Source of the DNA: Erysipelotrichaceae bacterium | GTDB lineage: Bacteria; Bacillota_I; Bacilli_A; Erysipelotrichales; Erysipelotrichaceae | DNA: 64,000 nt | NCBI GenBank assembly: GCA_030528645.1 | Contig: JAUMYM010000005.1 | Location: 1 to 64,000 of the forward strand | Direction of reading: 5' to 3' | Shown here: positions 38,563 through 45,395 of the stretch, in pieces | How the letters are laid out: every line of letters begins with the position of its first letter | How positions within the stretch are numbered: position 1 is the stretch's first letter | Position numbers and translations under genes: made by a program | The notes under the pieces: generated by a model | Database searches by the model: none | Told to the model about the DNA's origin: nothing | Seen by the model: the letters and a program-made list of their open reading frames with translations, nothing else

Positions 38563-39515
38563 GTTTAATTAGCGTAATTGTTCCGGTATATAATGTTGAA
38601 GCTTATTTAAGACGTTGTTTAAATTCTTTGCAAAAACAATACTATAAAAATCTTGAAATAATTGTTGTGGATGATGGTTCAACCGATCAAAGTTATCGTA
38701 TTGCAAAAGAATATGAATTTCAAGATGCTCGTTTTAAAGTTGTTCAAAAAGCAAATGGTGGTTTATCATCAGCCAGAAACTTTGGATTACAATATGCTTC
38801 AGGTGAGTATATTTCCTTTATTGATTCCGATGACTTTATTAGTGAAGATTATTATTCTCTAATGATGAGCTATATAAGTGAAGATACAATTGTCATGTGT
38901 TATTTTCAACGTTTTACAAAAGAAAAGGAATTAAATCGTTTCGATGAATATAAAGTGAAATCCTATACCAATAAAGAAGCATTGAATCTTCTTTATAGTG
39001 ATGATTATGTACAGACGGTAATTGCATGTAATAAGTTGCTACCAAAAGACTTAGTACAAAAAAATCTATTTCCTTTAGGTGTCATTTATGAAGATGAAGC
39101 TACCACGTATAAGTGGTTAGATCAATGTAAAACAGTAACGATTGTTACAAAACCAATGTATTATTATTTCATTCGTGAAGGTTCTATTACGAAAATAAAG
39201 TATCATAAGCGTCGTTTTGATTACCTACAAGCTTTAAAAGATCGAGTGAGTTACTTCTCAAATCATAATGTTGAGATGTATGCCAAGACAGTGAAAGCTT
39301 GGTTTTATGCAACATTTGAATTTATGATGGAATTAAAAGTAAATCACATCAAAGATGATGAAAAAAAACATATTCTACATCTTCAACGCAAGGAAAGTTA
39401 CCATTTATTGAGAAAAATAAAGTATTTTTCGCTTAAGACAAGATGTATGTACCATTTGGCATATTATGTTCCATTTTTATATTATGCCAAATTGAAAGGA
39501 GTGCAACATGATTAA
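38559..39515 (+). CDS. Family 2 glycosyltransferase
   Basis: 318 residues. ISVIVPVYNVEAYLRRCLNSL, VDDGSTDQS and FIDSDDFIS form the GT-A signature, and IYEDEATTYKWL near residue 175 the late motif. Overlaps both neighbours (four bases upstream, eight downstream), so it is translated as part of a tight glycosyltransferase group. Sugar specificity unknown. Confidence 0.93.
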   Translation: MSLISVIVPVYNVEAYLRRCLNSLQKQYYKNLEIIVVDDGSTDQSYRIAKEYEFQDARFKVVQKANGGLSSARNFGLQYASGEYISFIDSDDFISEDYYSLMMSYISEDTIVMCYFQRFTKEKELNRFDEYKVKSYTNKEALNLLYSDDYVQTVIACNKLLPKDLVQKNLFPLGVIYEDEATTYKWLDQCKTVTIVTKPMYYYFIREGSITKIKYHKRRFDYLQALKDRVSYFSNHNVEMYAKTVKAWFYATFEFMMELKVNHIKDDEKKHILHLQRKESYHLLRKIKYFSLKTRCMYHLAYYVPFLYYAKLKGVQHD

Positions 39516-40587
39516 AGTATTACAAGTCATCGGTTCTTTGAATATTGGTGGAGCTGAAAATATGATTGTATCTTGGCATGAAAGTATTAATCCAAATGAA
39601 TTTCAGTTTGACTACATTGTATTTAATGAAGAAAATAGTGATTATAAAAACCGTGTTGAAAAAATAAACGGTCGTATTTTTAATCTGCCAAGTCCAACTC
39701 GAAATCCGTTTAAGTTTTATCGTATGCTTAAAGAGATACAAAAACAATATCACTATGACATCCTTCATGCACATACACTTTTTAGTAATGGAATTATTTT
39801 AAAGATGGCAAAGCATCTTGGATTTAAAAAACGTATTTCGCATAGTCATAGTGGGAAAAACAGAGTTAAAGAAAATGTCGTTACAGTAGCCTATGGCAAG
39901 TGGATGCAGGCATTGATTCAACAAGAGGCAGATGTATATTTGGCGTGTAGTGAAAGTGCAGGTAATTTCTTATATGGTGAAGCTTTTTTCAAACAACATG
40001 GAACATTGATTGAAAATGCCATTTTAGCGGAAGCTTTCAGCTACAAGGAAGAACTTGCTCAAGCATTAAAAAAACAATATCATTTAGAAGATTCTATTGT
40101 AATTGGAATGGTCGCAAGATTTCATGAAGTGAAAAATCATACTTTCATGATTGAAGTATTAAAGAGTTTAGTGCAAATTCATCCAAAGTATACATTAGTC
40201 TTAGCTGGGGATGGTCCCTTATTGCATGAAATCCAAGCGAAAGTAAAAGATAATCATCTGGAAAAACATGTATTGTTTTTAGGAATGGTGAATAACGTCA
40301 AAGAGCTTTTAAATGTGTTTGATGTGGTAGTTATGCCATCCTTCCATGAAGGATTTCCACTGGCGTTATTAGAAGCGCAAGCCAACGGTGTAACGACCAT
40401 GGTTTCAAATACGATTACACAAGAAGTAAAACTTGCGGATAACTTAATGCATTTGCCACTTGAAGTAAATGCTTGGGTATCGGCAATTGTAAATATGCAA
40501 CAAAGCAAACGTATAAATCATATTCTAAATACCAAGTATGACTTAAAGACATCGATTTTAAAATTAGAAGAGATTTATCGTAGATAA
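39508..40587 (+). CDS. Family 4 glycosyltransferase
   Basis: 359 residues, GT-B fold. The start VLQVIGSLNIGGAENMI is the classical GT4 N-terminal loop; DILHAHTLFSNG and RISHSHSGKNRVKEN follow, and the donor site is VARFHEVKNH plus PSFHEGFPLALLEAQANG (E-x7-E) near residue 275. Close to EpsF-type capsule glycosyltransferases. AAAGGAG precedes the ATG, overlapping the upstream gene by eight bases. Confidence 0.94.
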   Translation: MIKVLQVIGSLNIGGAENMIVSWHESINPNEFQFDYIVFNEENSDYKNRVEKINGRIFNLPSPTRNPFKFYRMLKEIQKQYHYDILHAHTLFSNGIILKMAKHLGFKKRISHSHSGKNRVKENVVTVAYGKWMQALIQQEADVYLACSESAGNFLYGEAFFKQHGTLIENAILAEAFSYKEELAQALKKQYHLEDSIVIGMVARFHEVKNHTFMIEVLKSLVQIHPKYTLVLAGDGPLLHEIQAKVKDNHLEKHVLFLGMVNNVKELLNVFDVVVMPSFHEGFPLALLEAQANGVTTMVSNTITQEVKLADNLMHLPLEVNAWVSAIVNMQQSKRINHILNTKYDLKTSILKLEEIYRR

Positions 40588-40595
40588 GAGGTTTT

Positions 40596-42077
40596 ATGAA
40601 GAACATTACATTTGATGAGTTATCGAAGTATTTAACTCCATATTTTATTGAACATAATATCAATCGTCATAGTGAATATGATATTTTAACGGTGAATGCT
40701 AGAGATTTAATACATTATAAACGGATTGATTTGATTGCTAAAGTTGAGTATGTAAAGCATTATCTAGCTAAGCAACACAATCCTTTTATGGAAGAATTGT
40801 ATAAGGCTCATATTGAAGCTTTTTCCGATGGCAATTTTACAGAGTTAGGAAGTGAAGAGAAAAACTCAGCATCCAAATATTTAGAAAGTTTTCATCGATT
40901 GATTGATTCCATTGTGGAAGATGGGTTTAATCAAGACATTTCTTTAGTACCGGTTGGTGATGATAATGTGATTTTAGATGGTGCTCATCGCGTTTCTATT
41001 TGTGCTGCCTTAAATAAAGAGATTATGATTATCAAATTTAAGGGGCTTACACGTCAATATGATTTACAACATTTTCAAAAGCATTTACTGCCTTCGATTT
41101 ATCTGGATTACTTAATGCTTCAATATGTAAAAGTAGATCCTCAAGTCTATAGTTTTATATTCTGGCCAAAAGGCGATAGTGACTATAAAGAGGTTGCGAT
41201 TAAAAAAATAGAAGAACAATTTCCTATTTTATATCGTAAGAAAATAGCGCTAACGTATAATGGCTTAAAGAATTTTATGATTGAAGTCTATAAAAATCAT
41301 TCTTGGTTAGGGGATTATAAAAATCATTATCAAGGTGTATACGGACAACTAGATCCTTGTTTTCAAAAGGATAAAGCGTTAGAAGTACTCTTTGTAAAAG
41401 CCAATGAATTAGAAGATATGTTAAAGGTAAAGAGTGATATACGTTCTTTGTATAACATTGGAAATTATTCCATTCATTCTACAGATAATCAAAATGAAAC
41501 CTTAACCGTAGCTCAACTTCTATTAAATGAACATAGTATACATTTCTTAAACTATGGTTATCATGATGGTTATCCAAATTTCTATCGTAATGTATTGCTG
41601 TTTAAAGAACGTCTACCTGAAAGTGAAGTAGAAGCGACGATCATTGATTCTAGCAGTATTATGGCAATGTATGGGATAAGAGAAACAGAAGATGTAGATT
41701 ACATAAACGTACATAGTTATGTGGTAGAAGGTTTTGACTTGCATAATGCATATGTTTCATACTATCAAGCAAGTATGGAAGAGTTAATATATAATCCAAA
41801 TTGTCATTTTTATTACAATGGATTAAAATTTATAACGTTACAAAAACTTCTGGAATTTAAATTAAAGCGTAACGAAGCGAAAGATCAAATTGATGCAGCA
41901 CTGATTGCGAAGTTTTTAAAACATAATCGTACCGGTTTTTCTTATGAGAAGTTTCAAGTAGAATGGAAACGTTTTAAGCGTAATAGTAATTTAAAATTAC
42001 GAAGTTTTGCGAAAAAAACTTTAAAAGCATTGGGGATTTATCATTTATATAGTAAAATTGCACATAGAAAGAAATAA
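40596..42077 (+). CDS. Unrecognised 493-residue protein with a ParB-like and a nucleotidyltransferase-like segment
   Basis: No whole-length family recognised. Residues 112-147 (DISLVPVGDDNVILDGAHRVSICAAL in part) carry the DGxHR pattern of ParB/sulfiredoxin-like domains, which bind nucleotides. Residues 345-372 (ATIIDSSSIMAMYGIRETEDVDYI in part) resemble the G-x-R-x-T-x-D-x-D active site of nucleotidyltransferase-fold proteins, followed by YNGLKFITLQKLLEFKLKRNEAKD like the usual C-terminal helices. There is no signal peptide or membrane segment; the last 45 residues are very basic. It sits between a glycosyltransferase and a flippase, nine bases after the former, so it probably modifies the glycan or its precursor in the cytoplasm. 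Phosphosugar or nucleotide transfer is an inference. AGAGG precedes the ATG. Confidence 0.55.
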   Translation: MKNITFDELSKYLTPYFIEHNINRHSEYDILTVNARDLIHYKRIDLIAKVEYVKHYLAKQHNPFMEELYKAHIEAFSDGNFTELGSEEKNSASKYLESFHRLIDSIVEDGFNQDISLVPVGDDNVILDGAHRVSICAALNKEIMIIKFKGLTRQYDLQHFQKHLLPSIYLDYLMLQYVKVDPQVYSFIFWPKGDSDYKEVAIKKIEEQFPILYRKKIALTYNGLKNFMIEVYKNHSWLGDYKNHYQGVYGQLDPCFQKDKALEVLFVKANELEDMLKVKSDIRSLYNIGNYSIHSTDNQNETLTVAQLLLNEHSIHFLNYGYHDGYPNFYRNVLLFKERLPESEVEATIIDSSSIMAMYGIRETEDVDYINVHSYVVEGFDLHNAYVSYYQASMEELIYNPNCHFYYNGLKFITLQKLLEFKLKRNEAKDQIDAALIAKFLKHNRTGFSYEKFQVEWKRFKRNSNLKLRSFAKKTLKALGIYHLYSKIAHRKK

Positions 42078-42078
42078 T

Positions 42079-43608
42079 ATGAATACACTAAGTCGTTCTT
42101 ACAATTCAATTCGTAATATAGTCATTGGTTTTGCAACACAAATCATGACCTTTTTACTATCGTTTATATTAAGAACGTTTTTTATCTATTATTTTGGTAA
42201 AGAATTATTAGGTGTTAATGGATTATATAGTAATATTTTAACGATTCTATCTTTAGCGGAATTGGGGTTAGGAACGGTTATGATTTATAGCTTATATAAG
42301 CCCATTAAAGAACAAGATCAACTTAAAATTACTCAGTTACTCTATTATTTTAAAAAACTCTATCATTTCATTGCCTTAGTGATGTTGGTGGTAGGATTAT
42401 TATGTCTACCAATTTTACCTTACTTTATTGTAAGTGATTTGAATATCGCTGATTTAAGAGTCTATTATGTTTTGTTTTTATTAAATACGGTATGTAGTTA
42501 CTTTAACATTTATAAAACAGCTTTAATCAATGCTGATCAAAAGCAATATCTTATTAAAAATGTAACAATGCTTGTTTTTGTAATTACTTCTCTTGTGCAA
42601 ATTGGTATAGCCTTCTATTTTCAAGATTACCGTTTATATTTAATGAGTGCGATTCTTTCAACCTTAACAACAAATTATATTTTAGGGAAGGTGGCAGATA
42701 AACGTTATCCGTTTATTAAACAAAAAGTAGAAGAACTGTCAAAAGAAGAAAAAACAACTATTTTTGCCAATATGAAAAGTATGTTTTTATATAAAATTGG
42801 TGTTGTAATTATGAATAATACAGATAACATCTTGATTTCAAAATTAGTTGGAACTGTTTGGGTTGGTTTATATTCAAATTATGGTTTGTTTGTAAACATG
42901 GTTAATTCGTTTATCAATACCTTTTTAAATGCGATTTTCGCTAGTTTAGGGAACTTAAATGCAGGTGAAAATCAAAAACGAAAATATGAAATCTTTGAAA
43001 TGTTGTTGTTGCTGTTTCATTGGCTAGCAGCGTTTTGTAGTATCTGCTTTATCGTATTGTTTAACGATACGATTACTTTATGGATTGGAAAAGAATATCT
43101 ATTTGATGAATTAGTTATCTTTGCGATTGTCTTTAATTTCTATTTAGCAAACATTGTAAATCCGGTATGGATGTATCGAGAAACAACAGGTTTATTTCAT
43201 CGTATTAAATACACTATGTTAATATCTAGTATTATCAATTTAGTATTGTCGATTGTTTTAGGAAAGAGCTATGGTATATTTGGTATTTTAATGGCTACGG
43301 CTGTTTCACGCTTACTTACAACCATTTGGTATGAACCATATGTCTTATTTAAAGATTATTTTAAGATACACCCATGGAAGTATTATCAAAGACAGTTAAC
43401 ATACATCATAATTTCTGTAATTGGTTTTATCACAACCAGATATGCTGTTTCTTATATATCGAATGTTTCATTTATAAATTTGATCGTAAAGTTACTAATA
43501 TGTATTATACTTTTTAACACTATTTTCTTAATTTTGACTTATCGAAGTAAACCATTTAGGCTAATAAAAGAAAATTATATCGACAAGCGATATAAAAGGG
43601 GGAAATAA
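42079..43608 (+). CDS. Wzx-type polysaccharide flippase (second of three)
   Basis: 509 residues, about twelve to fourteen membrane segments. The sequence SYNSIRNIVIGFATQIMTFLLSF and YYFGKELLGVNGLYSNILTILSLAELGLGTVMIY is characteristic of the Wzx/MOP family, as is NNTDNILISKLVGTVWVGLYSNYG near residue 240. The ATG at 42079 follows the upstream stop by one base; an in-frame ATG at 42058 lies within the previous gene and is less likely. No strong binding site is visible. It exports the unit built by the genes at 34-41 kb, by position. Confidence 0.9.
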   Translation: MNTLSRSYNSIRNIVIGFATQIMTFLLSFILRTFFIYYFGKELLGVNGLYSNILTILSLAELGLGTVMIYSLYKPIKEQDQLKITQLLYYFKKLYHFIALVMLVVGLLCLPILPYFIVSDLNIADLRVYYVLFLLNTVCSYFNIYKTALINADQKQYLIKNVTMLVFVITSLVQIGIAFYFQDYRLYLMSAILSTLTTNYILGKVADKRYPFIKQKVEELSKEEKTTIFANMKSMFLYKIGVVIMNNTDNILISKLVGTVWVGLYSNYGLFVNMVNSFINTFLNAIFASLGNLNAGENQKRKYEIFEMLLLLFHWLAAFCSICFIVLFNDTITLWIGKEYLFDELVIFAIVFNFYLANIVNPVWMYRETTGLFHRIKYTMLISSIINLVLSIVLGKSYGIFGILMATAVSRLLTTIWYEPYVLFKDYFKIHPWKYYQRQLTYIIISVIGFITTRYAVSYISNVSFINLIVKLLICIILFNTIFLILTYRSKPFRLIKENYIDKRYKRGK

Positions 43609-43611
43609 TCT

Positions 43612-44796
43612 ATGAAGAAACTATATGAAATAGTAAATAACAGAGCATTATTTTTAGTTGTGCTATTATTTTCTTGTTTTTACAATGCCCTTTATTATCA
43701 ACCTTTAGGAATGGGTCGTAACTATTTTTTCTATCTTAGCTGTATATGGGCCCTTTATTTTTTAATAGAAGGCTTTTTGACAAAGAAAATAAATATTGCT
43801 TCAAAATTAACGTGGAGTGCCCTTGGATTTCTAGCAGTGTTACTTATTTCAACCTTTATTAATTTTAAGCATACTTCTATGCTTTCAATTACATATCTAT
43901 ATAGCACGATTATGTATATCTTCGTTGTTTATCTTTATCAAGATGAAATCTATTTTGATCCTACTTACTACATTATCGTCTTTTTATTTATTGCTTCGTT
44001 GATTTCATTATTGATGTTTCTGTTTGGATATTTTAAAGAATTACCATTTGCTAAACTTGGTTATCGAACTGTATTATATGGAATTTATAATGGATCCAAT
44101 GCAACCGGCTTTTGTAGTGCTATAGCCATTTTATTATCTTTAAAGAAGATGAGTAAAATTAAATTAGTTAATAAGTGGTTAGCCTTTAACATAGTAATTC
44201 AATCAATGACTTTATGGTTATCAAGATCTCAAAACAGTATTGTATTTTTAGTCATCAGTTTTGTTATATATTTCATACTTAAAAAAACAAAGATAAAATT
44301 AAGTCAACGCTTGCTATATCGTCTATTGATAATTGGTGTACTTTTTATTGTTGTAATGATTATCATTATTTATAGTGAAGATAGTCGCTATCGTTTCTTT
44401 AATCATCTTTTTAATCGTAGAGTAGAGTTATGGTTAGATTCTTCCTTAGAACTTTTAAAACAACCAATCTTAGGATATGGGGTTGGAACATTTAATAAGA
44501 TAATGTGTGGAGTAAAACCACCGGATAACTACATTTGTGTAGATGTGATACATAGTGGACATAATGTAATCTTTGATGTGTTATTTTATGGAGGAGTTTT
44601 AGGCATTATTACTTTTGGGTGGTTTGTAAAAAACATCATTCACTATAGCAATTTGGAATATCGATATGATGCTTTTGTGTTAATCTTATTTATTTTAATG
44701 ATTTCCATGTTTGATTACAGTTTCTTGTTTGCAAATTCTTTAACTGCCTTTGTATTTTTTAATGAAGCTAGAAGTATCTTGAGGAAGCCATTATGA
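43612..44796 (+). CDS. O-antigen polymerase/ligase-like membrane protein (Wzy-like)
   Basis: 394 residues, about eleven membrane segments, with a large external loop holding LNRRVELWLDSSLELLKQPILGYGVGTFN and the later HNVIFDVLFYGGVLGIITF; the W-x-GxGxGT and HN features match the Wzy/WaaL family. It starts three bases after the flippase stop with GGGGG just upstream, and overlaps the DUF1919 gene by four bases. The flippase-polymerase pair suggests a Wzx/Wzy-dependent pathway. It is the second polymerase-like gene in the locus. Confidence 0.88.
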   Translation: MKKLYEIVNNRALFLVVLLFSCFYNALYYQPLGMGRNYFFYLSCIWALYFLIEGFLTKKINIASKLTWSALGFLAVLLISTFINFKHTSMLSITYLYSTIMYIFVVYLYQDEIYFDPTYYIIVFLFIASLISLLMFLFGYFKELPFAKLGYRTVLYGIYNGSNATGFCSAIAILLSLKKMSKIKLVNKWLAFNIVIQSMTLWLSRSQNSIVFLVISFVIYFILKKTKIKLSQRLLYRLLIIGVLFIVVMIIIIYSEDSRYRFFNHLFNRRVELWLDSSLELLKQPILGYGVGTFNKIMCGVKPPDNYICVDVIHSGHNVIFDVLFYGGVLGIITFGWFVKNIIHYSNLEYRYDAFVLILFILMISMFDYSFLFANSLTAFVFFNEARSILRKPL

Positions 44797-45395
44797 GTAT
44801 TGTAAATGTAAAGTTACGAAAACTAGTAAATTGGTATCATCAAAAACGGTTAAAGAACCATGACTTTTCGATTATTGCAAGCAATTGTATTGGTAGTTTC
44901 ATTTGCCATGATTTACATGTACGTTTTAATTCACCATTTGTAAACTTGTGGTTACATGCTGATGATTTTATAAAGTATTTACAAAATATGAGATATTACA
45001 ATTCATGTACTCTTACATTCATAAAAGAAGAGGGGATTGAATATCCGGTAGGGTTGTTGGATGATATTAAGATATATTTTAAACACTATAAAAATGAAGA
45101 AGAAGCCAAAACGAAGTGGATACAACGCGTAAAACGTATTAATTATGATAATCTATTTGTTATTTTCACAGATCGTGATGGTTGCACATATCAACATTTA
45201 AAAGCTTTTGAAGAGCTAGACATAAAGAATAAAGTAGTTTTTACGCATAAACCTTATCCAGAATTTAAGTCTGCATATTATATCAAAGGCTTTGAACAAC
45301 AAGATAAACTAGGAAATTTGTATGAATATAGACATCGTTTTACAGGATTTAAATATTATGATCAATTTAATTATGTAAAGTGGTTGAATGGGTAA
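44793..45395 (+). CDS. DUF1919 protein
   Basis: 200 residues matching DUF1919: FSIIASNCIGSFICHDLHVRFNSPFVNLW, YPVGLLDDIKIYFKHYKNEEEAKTKWIQRVKRINYDNLFVIFTDRDGCT in pieces, and VFTHKPY. The conserved TDRDGCT and NC...H residues suggest a catalytic or carbohydrate-binding role; the family recurs in exopolysaccharide loci but its biochemistry is not established to my knowledge. No membrane segment, so cytoplasmic. It overlaps the polymerase gene by four bases (ATGA). Confidence 0.9.
   Translation: MSIVNVKLRKLVNWYHQKRLKNHDFSIIASNCIGSFICHDLHVRFNSPFVNLWLHADDFIKYLQNMRYYNSCTLTFIKEEGIEYPVGLLDDIKIYFKHYKNEEEAKTKWIQRVKRINYDNLFVIFTDRDGCTYQHLKAFEELDIKNKVVFTHKPYPEFKSAYYIKGFEQQDKLGNLYEYRHRFTGFKYYDQFNYVKWLNG

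Follow-up and report, generated by a model that had tools for sequence, protein, structure and literature searches.

The DNA analysed here (the window) is a stretch of 64,000 nucleotides, in which a check of open reading frames and translations located the gene for a 493-aa protein (P0001) inside a polysaccharide operon, at positions 40596–42077 of the plus strand. As the first-pass annotation had described, DGAHR was found at residues 128–132 and GIRETEDVDYI at residues 360–370, and the gene lies between those for a glycosyltransferase and a flippase. Its start codon is separated by 8 bp from the stop codon of the GT4 glycosyltransferase gene. The gene and its neighbours were as follows:

39508–40587, plus strand: upstream neighbour, GT4 glycosyltransferase (Glycos_transf_1, E 9e-25)
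40596–42077, plus strand: gene for the 493-aa three-domain protein P0001 (open reading frame, dN/dS, homologues)
42058–43608, plus strand: downstream neighbour, flippase-like, Wzx-type (Polysacc_synt_3, E 6e-4, a weak match below the Pfam cut-off)
43612–44796, plus strand: Wzy-type polymerase (Wzy_C)
44793–45395, plus strand: DUF1919 protein, three genes downstream of the 493-aa gene

Besides the DUF1919 gene, the same operon comprises genes for an initiating sugar transferase, a CapD-type dehydratase and three further glycosyltransferases. In L025, too, the P0001 homologue has a DUF1919 gene right beside it, and DUF1919 may be a functional partner. Further along (window:51866–54205), a large protein resembling a LytR-CpsA-Psr ligase, with a substrate-binding-protein-like segment ahead, was recognised by eye.

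A syntenic copy of the gene in the sister species Erysipelotrichaceae bacterium OH741_COT-311 (L001) showed 97% identity at the protein level and 96% at the DNA level, with a dN/dS of 0.11. Because of this copy, and because relatives at approximately 25–36% identity occur in Fusobacteriota, Alphaproteobacteria and Bacillota, the open reading frame is not a product of chance; it is a real gene under purifying selection. The polysaccharide loci of both species also harbour a 2-hydroxyacid dehydrogenase gene (L001:336–2034; window:31552–32439), which in L001 stands beside an aldolase-like gene read by eye, and these genes possibly serve the synthesis of a hydroxyacid substituent.

Twelve full-length members of the P0001 family were found, with identities ranging from approximately 25 to 97%. 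Apart from the sister species, full-length relatives came from a different Erysipelotrichaceae genus (seven genomes, around 30% identity), from a single genome belonging to a further family within the class (L015, 36%), from Ilyobacter polytropus (31%) and from Jannaschia (26%). The protein is sparse within its own bacterial family, since only 9 of 273 Erysipelotrichaceae genomes have a full-length copy. With regard to domain content, a Paracoccus relative (L014) has kept the ParB-like part and lost the nucleotidyltransferase (NTase) domain, as well as the histidine of the middle domain, while the other eight aligned members retain all three domains together with their invariant residues. A glycosyltransferase gene setting was observed for every full-length-family locus whose neighbours were read: in Ilyobacter, Jannaschia and Paracoccus, the annotated neighbours are glycosyltransferases and other polysaccharide genes, and in the Bacillota they are GT2, GT4, FucT, Wzy and DUF1919 proteins.

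None of the Pfam, NCBIfam or PDB-sequence models was reached by P0001 or by seven relatives spanning the family. Weak matches to an aldolase and to other Pfam and PDB entries had E values of about 0.1 and were attributed to chance, as were the low-complexity or coiled-coil-like matches in L016 and L017, and a Novosphingobium match (H11), annotated as an SDR oxidoreductase, was dropped as a relative. The ParB and NTase similarities proposed in the first-pass annotation were therefore invisible to the standard HMMER libraries, and it was profile–profile comparison that brought them out. When each of the three domains was compared by hhalign with each of three superfamilies, every domain matched its own superfamily only, with off-diagonal probabilities of at most 0.4%. 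The middle, nucleoside diphosphate (NDP) kinase-like domain had not figured in the first-pass annotation.

The N-terminal part of the protein comprises the following features:

40596–41120, plus strand: N-terminal ParB-like region, residues 1–175 (hhalign; the core matching ParB covers approximately residues 98–150)
40977–40991, plus strand: DGAHR motif, residues 128–132 (G129, H131 and R132 invariant in 9/9 aligned members)

Domain 1 matched ParB_N sequences with an hhalign probability of 39.5%, compared with 0.1% for the two other superfamilies, and its ParB_N score was equalled by none of 300 column shuffles. A stepwise link was also obtained through ParB-like domains of other glycan loci. 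This intermediate set was recovered by profile search from single-domain relatives (L134, L135, L137, L138, L144, L145 and L011), representatives of which were compared, and it matched domain 1 at 96.9% and, in turn, ParB at 65%. None of the eight members tested scored above the Pfam gathering threshold of ParB_N (PF02195). These comparisons give moderate support to a ParB-like N-terminal domain. The best-known role of ParB folds is in DNA segregation. P0001 does not qualify as a ParB partition protein as judged from its sequence and setting: the helix-turn-helix (HTH) and the C-terminal dimerisation domain are absent, the rest of the chain being made up of two other domains, and a parS/ParA setting was not found either. 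The two strong ParB_N matches of this genome lie elsewhere, outside the glycan operon.

The features of the middle domain were the following:

41145–41555, plus strand: middle domain, probably NDP-kinase-like, residues 184–320 (hhalign, structural model, Foldseek)
41469–41486, plus strand: SIHSTD, residues 292–297, with invariant H294, the probable counterpart of the catalytic histidine motif NiiHGSDS of NDP kinase

H294 is invariant in all eight full-length members aligned. In the 3 × 3 comparison, domain 2 matched NDP kinase (NDK) at 22%, and the alignment placed SIHsTD onto the catalytic NiiHGSDS, the surrounding residues being different; the conserved histidine in the SIHxTD of the family may correspond to that in the NxIHGSD of NDP kinase. 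The hhalign global score against NDK was 23.4, as opposed to a mean of 3.3 and a maximum of 16.6 for shuffles. Among 652 unrelated natural segments the maximum was 15.4, a control that is not like-for-like with the family profile because the segments are single sequences; single family members mostly did not stand out from these segments. Inclusion of the relatives L143 and L032 lowered the global NDP kinase probability from 22 to 11.

AlphaFold2 applied to the full-length protein with a two-row alignment was uninformative (pLDDT 33). A model of the middle domain, equally from a two-row alignment and of low confidence (pLDDT 50), showed the order beta-alpha-beta-alpha-alpha-beta-alpha, as expected of an NDP kinase, and NDP kinases made up 11 of its top 50 Foldseek matches in the PDB, none of which had E < 0.01. 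In contrast to NDP kinase, P0001 has Trp190 at the position of the KPDG lysine, the Kpn loop/TIRGD arginine region is without counterpart in our alignment, and the family gave no match to the Pfam model (PF00334). NDP kinase chemistry is doubtful because of this tryptophan and the missing Kpn loop/TIRGD region. We consider that the middle domain is probably related to NDP kinase, and we do not class the 493-aa protein as an NDP kinase. A canonical NDP kinase (PF00334) was not found in the host genome, which is 97.5% complete, nor in most of the relatives searched.

In the C-terminal part, four features were delimited:

41628–41921, plus strand: C-terminal NTase-like domain, AbiEii/DUF6036-like, residues 345–442 (hhalign, shuffles)
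41679–41699, plus strand: motif II R-x3-D-x-D (R362, D366, D368), invariant in 8/8 members
41880–41894, plus strand: motif IV +DxxD (KDQID, residues 429–433), a basic residue plus DxxD in 8/8 members
41952–42074, plus strand: strongly basic C-terminal tail, net charge +12 over 40 residues

Here, the earlier proposal of an NTase-like protein held. Domain 3 matched, at 97.3%, small NTases that stand alone and belong to the same class; one of them gave a weak match to DUF6036, annotated as nucleotidyltransferase (E 0.013). In the 3 × 3 comparison with AbiEii the probability was 7.7%; the local score was above those of all 300 shuffles, and the global score was beaten by 3 of 300. Motifs II, III and IV have been defined in AbiEii (PMC3985639). 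Motif II and motif IV are common to AbiEii/DUF1814 and the eight members aligned, in which K422, R425 (motif III), D430 and D433 are invariant and position 429 is always basic. The lysine–arginine spacing of motif III is longer in AbiEii than in this family, which does not reach the Pfam gathering score of AbiEii/DUF1814. Motif I, hG[G/S], was present in five of the eight members, its glycine being replaced by serine or threonine in P0001 (Ser352), L013 and L015. Since the G49A substitution at the equivalent glycine kills AbiEii (PMC3985639), some members may possess an inactive NTase domain, and the missing glycine weakens the case for catalysis by this domain in P0001.

The LicD type that had been suggested for this domain fared differently: its local score against LicD (PF04991) was 12.1, with a shuffle mean of 12.0, and because the score equals that of shuffled columns, this identity is unsupported by the sequence. 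NTP_transf_5 was likewise rejected, its profile score lying at or near the shuffle level. Taken together, the comparisons moderately support a C-terminal NTase-like domain that resembles AbiEii/DUF1814 and DUF6036-like proteins, and not LicD. The basic tail is a property of the family as well, with a net charge of +7 to +12 in 8/8 members, and possibly contacts the membrane.

The likeness to AbiEii, with the motif II arginine and motif IV, would also be expected if P0001 were an AbiEii-type toxin or defence protein whose place in a polysaccharide locus is a coincidence. We consider this highly improbable. The glycan context of the homologues, which is kept in three phyla, argues strongly against it; in contrast to the toxin–antitoxin pairing of AbiEii, the homologues read had no neighbour resembling an antitoxin, and the phage genomes and viral contigs searched contained no relative of the protein.

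In addition to the full-length family, its domains were encountered rearranged or singly. The permuted relative L032/L034 (545 aa), encoded in a polysaccharide locus, carries the NTase-like domain first (E 2.9e-12) and, behind it, a portion of the middle domain (E 3e-5). The two are separated by a stretch that looks, by eye only, like a degenerate ParB-like domain and obtained no support from the profile. A lone copy of the middle domain was found in L143 (hhalign 77%), and the corresponding gene of L143/L148 adjoins LicD and cytidylyltransferase genes. The ParB-like proteins of L134, L135, L137, L144 and L145 are located directly after a LicD-type gene and before, or fused to, a GT2 gene; Pfam confirmed LicD for L149 and GT2 for L150. 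In the surrounding clusters of L149, L150 and L152, a cytidylyltransferase is fused to a GFO/IDH oxidoreductase, and the L149 cluster also has a metallophosphoesterase. In the L011 protein an RgpF domain precedes the ParB-like domain, and on a Lactiplantibacillus plasmid an RgpF-type gene lies ahead of a fragment related to the ParB-like domain.

The ParB-like genes also form part of a recurrent cluster, at L149:4244–10883 and L151:7304–13924, with a related one at L150:5041–10920. Its genes encode LicD, a cytidylyltransferase fused to a GFO/IDH/MocA oxidoreductase, a metallophosphoesterase-type protein, a further LicD, a Rossmann-like plus ParB-like protein and GT2. This arrangement looks like an undescribed pathway of CDP-polyol decoration. 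At L150:8497–10920, one chain of 807 residues unites an N-terminal part, the ParB-like domain, GT2 and DUF6270, and at L151:6402–7307, DUF1919 is fused to a C2185-like N-terminal domain.

The association of single-domain relatives with LicD and cytidylyltransferase genes is suggestive, and the LicD-linked ParB-like loci are not fully independent because two genera account for most of them. Among the genes adjacent to full-length members, neither LicD nor a cytidylyltransferase was encountered. LicD and TagD-type cytidylyltransferases have their genomic setting in common with relatives of domains 1 and 2, and the overall chemistry, transfer of a CDP-activated phospho-group to a glycan, is plausibly alike.

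The distribution of the separate domains bears on the question of how many of them are functional in P0001. A single domain could make or modify an ordinary precursor, or phosphorylate a glycan or a lipid-linked sugar, the other two being remnants or structural. In line with this, some ParB-like domains are joined to RgpF or GT2 and lack the other two, and the Paracoccus relative L014 dispenses with both the NTase domain and the middle-domain histidine. We regard this explanation as improbable, given that the three domains with their invariant residues are retained in the other eight aligned members and that the permuted L032 keeps two domains together.

With a ParB-like and an NTase-like domain in a glycan context, as indicated by the comparisons above, and a probably NDP-kinase-like domain between them, we tentatively read the 493-aa protein, at slightly less than even confidence, as an enzyme that takes part in decorating the product of a Wzx/Wzy-type polysaccharide pathway with a phosphate-containing group. 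The first-pass annotation had likewise suggested a glycan-modifying enzyme, and context speaks indirectly for it: glycosyltransferase neighbours and, as the main clue to function, relatives of the separate domains beside LicD and cytidylyltransferase genes. The chemistry itself, including the kinase activity, the substrate, the sequence of reactions and contact with the membrane, is what we infer. The ParB-fold domain would bind an NTP and act as a kinase on a small molecule or sugar, like SerK and SbnI; the NDP-kinase-like domain would carry out a phosphoryl or nucleotide step via its conserved histidine, and the NTase-fold domain would activate or transfer the phospho-group. One protein would thus do the job of the separate cytidylyltransferase and LicD that accompany relatives of its domains. 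Its basic tail may anchor it at the membrane, the site of assembly of the lipid-linked repeat unit, and the neighbouring flippase would export this unit after decoration.

A precedent for ParB-fold kinases is the free serine kinase SerK (TK0378) (PMC5120207), and such kinases are discussed with SbnI in a 2025 survey of the fusions that ParB domains form (PMC12704722). A ParB/Srx-type fold is predicted for P0001 too, which resembles SerK and SbnI in being without a visible HTH or ParB dimerisation domain and outside DNA segregation. It differs from them in that its ParB-like part is fused to two further domains and occurs in glycan loci, and no counterpart of their catalytic Glu was mapped.

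ParB folds also widely serve as NTP-binding switches, fused to many domains, according to the main text of the same survey (PMC12704722). P0001 could accordingly be a regulator whose ParB-like domain senses CTP or another NTP and whose other domains bind without catalysis, controlling polysaccharide assembly or export, and the degeneration of NTase motif I and of the NDP kinase lysine in P0001 would fit. This, too, seems improbable to us: the invariance of H294, R362, D366, D368, D430 and D433 across three phyla goes beyond the needs of a scaffold, and where the ParB-like and middle domains are encoded by genes of their own, these keep company with LicD and cytidylyltransferase enzymes.

Returning to an enzyme of phosphate decoration, a bolder and rather unlikely version is that the DGxHR ParB-like domain of glycan loci represents a new family of ParB-fold kinases, with the 493-aa protein as a one-polypeptide pathway (kinase, histidine phosphoryl-transfer domain and nucleotidyl/phospho-transferase) that would make a phospho-substituent and attach it to surface polysaccharides. 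No publication connecting ParB with NDP kinase or LicD in the synthesis of glycans came up in a literature search, and the words glycosyltransferase, polysaccharide, nucleotidyltransferase and diphosphate kinase are all absent from the main text of the ParB-fusion survey (PMC12704722). Each part falls into a superfamily that is already known; the libraries and literature searched contained neither the combination of these parts nor its placement in glycan synthesis. If the proposal is true, a family of ParB folds associated with LicD and cytidylyltransferase genes would provide a kinase candidate, open to testing, for surface glycans substituted with phosphate, and a role would be assigned to proteins annotated as hypothetical in the polysaccharide loci of at least three phyla.
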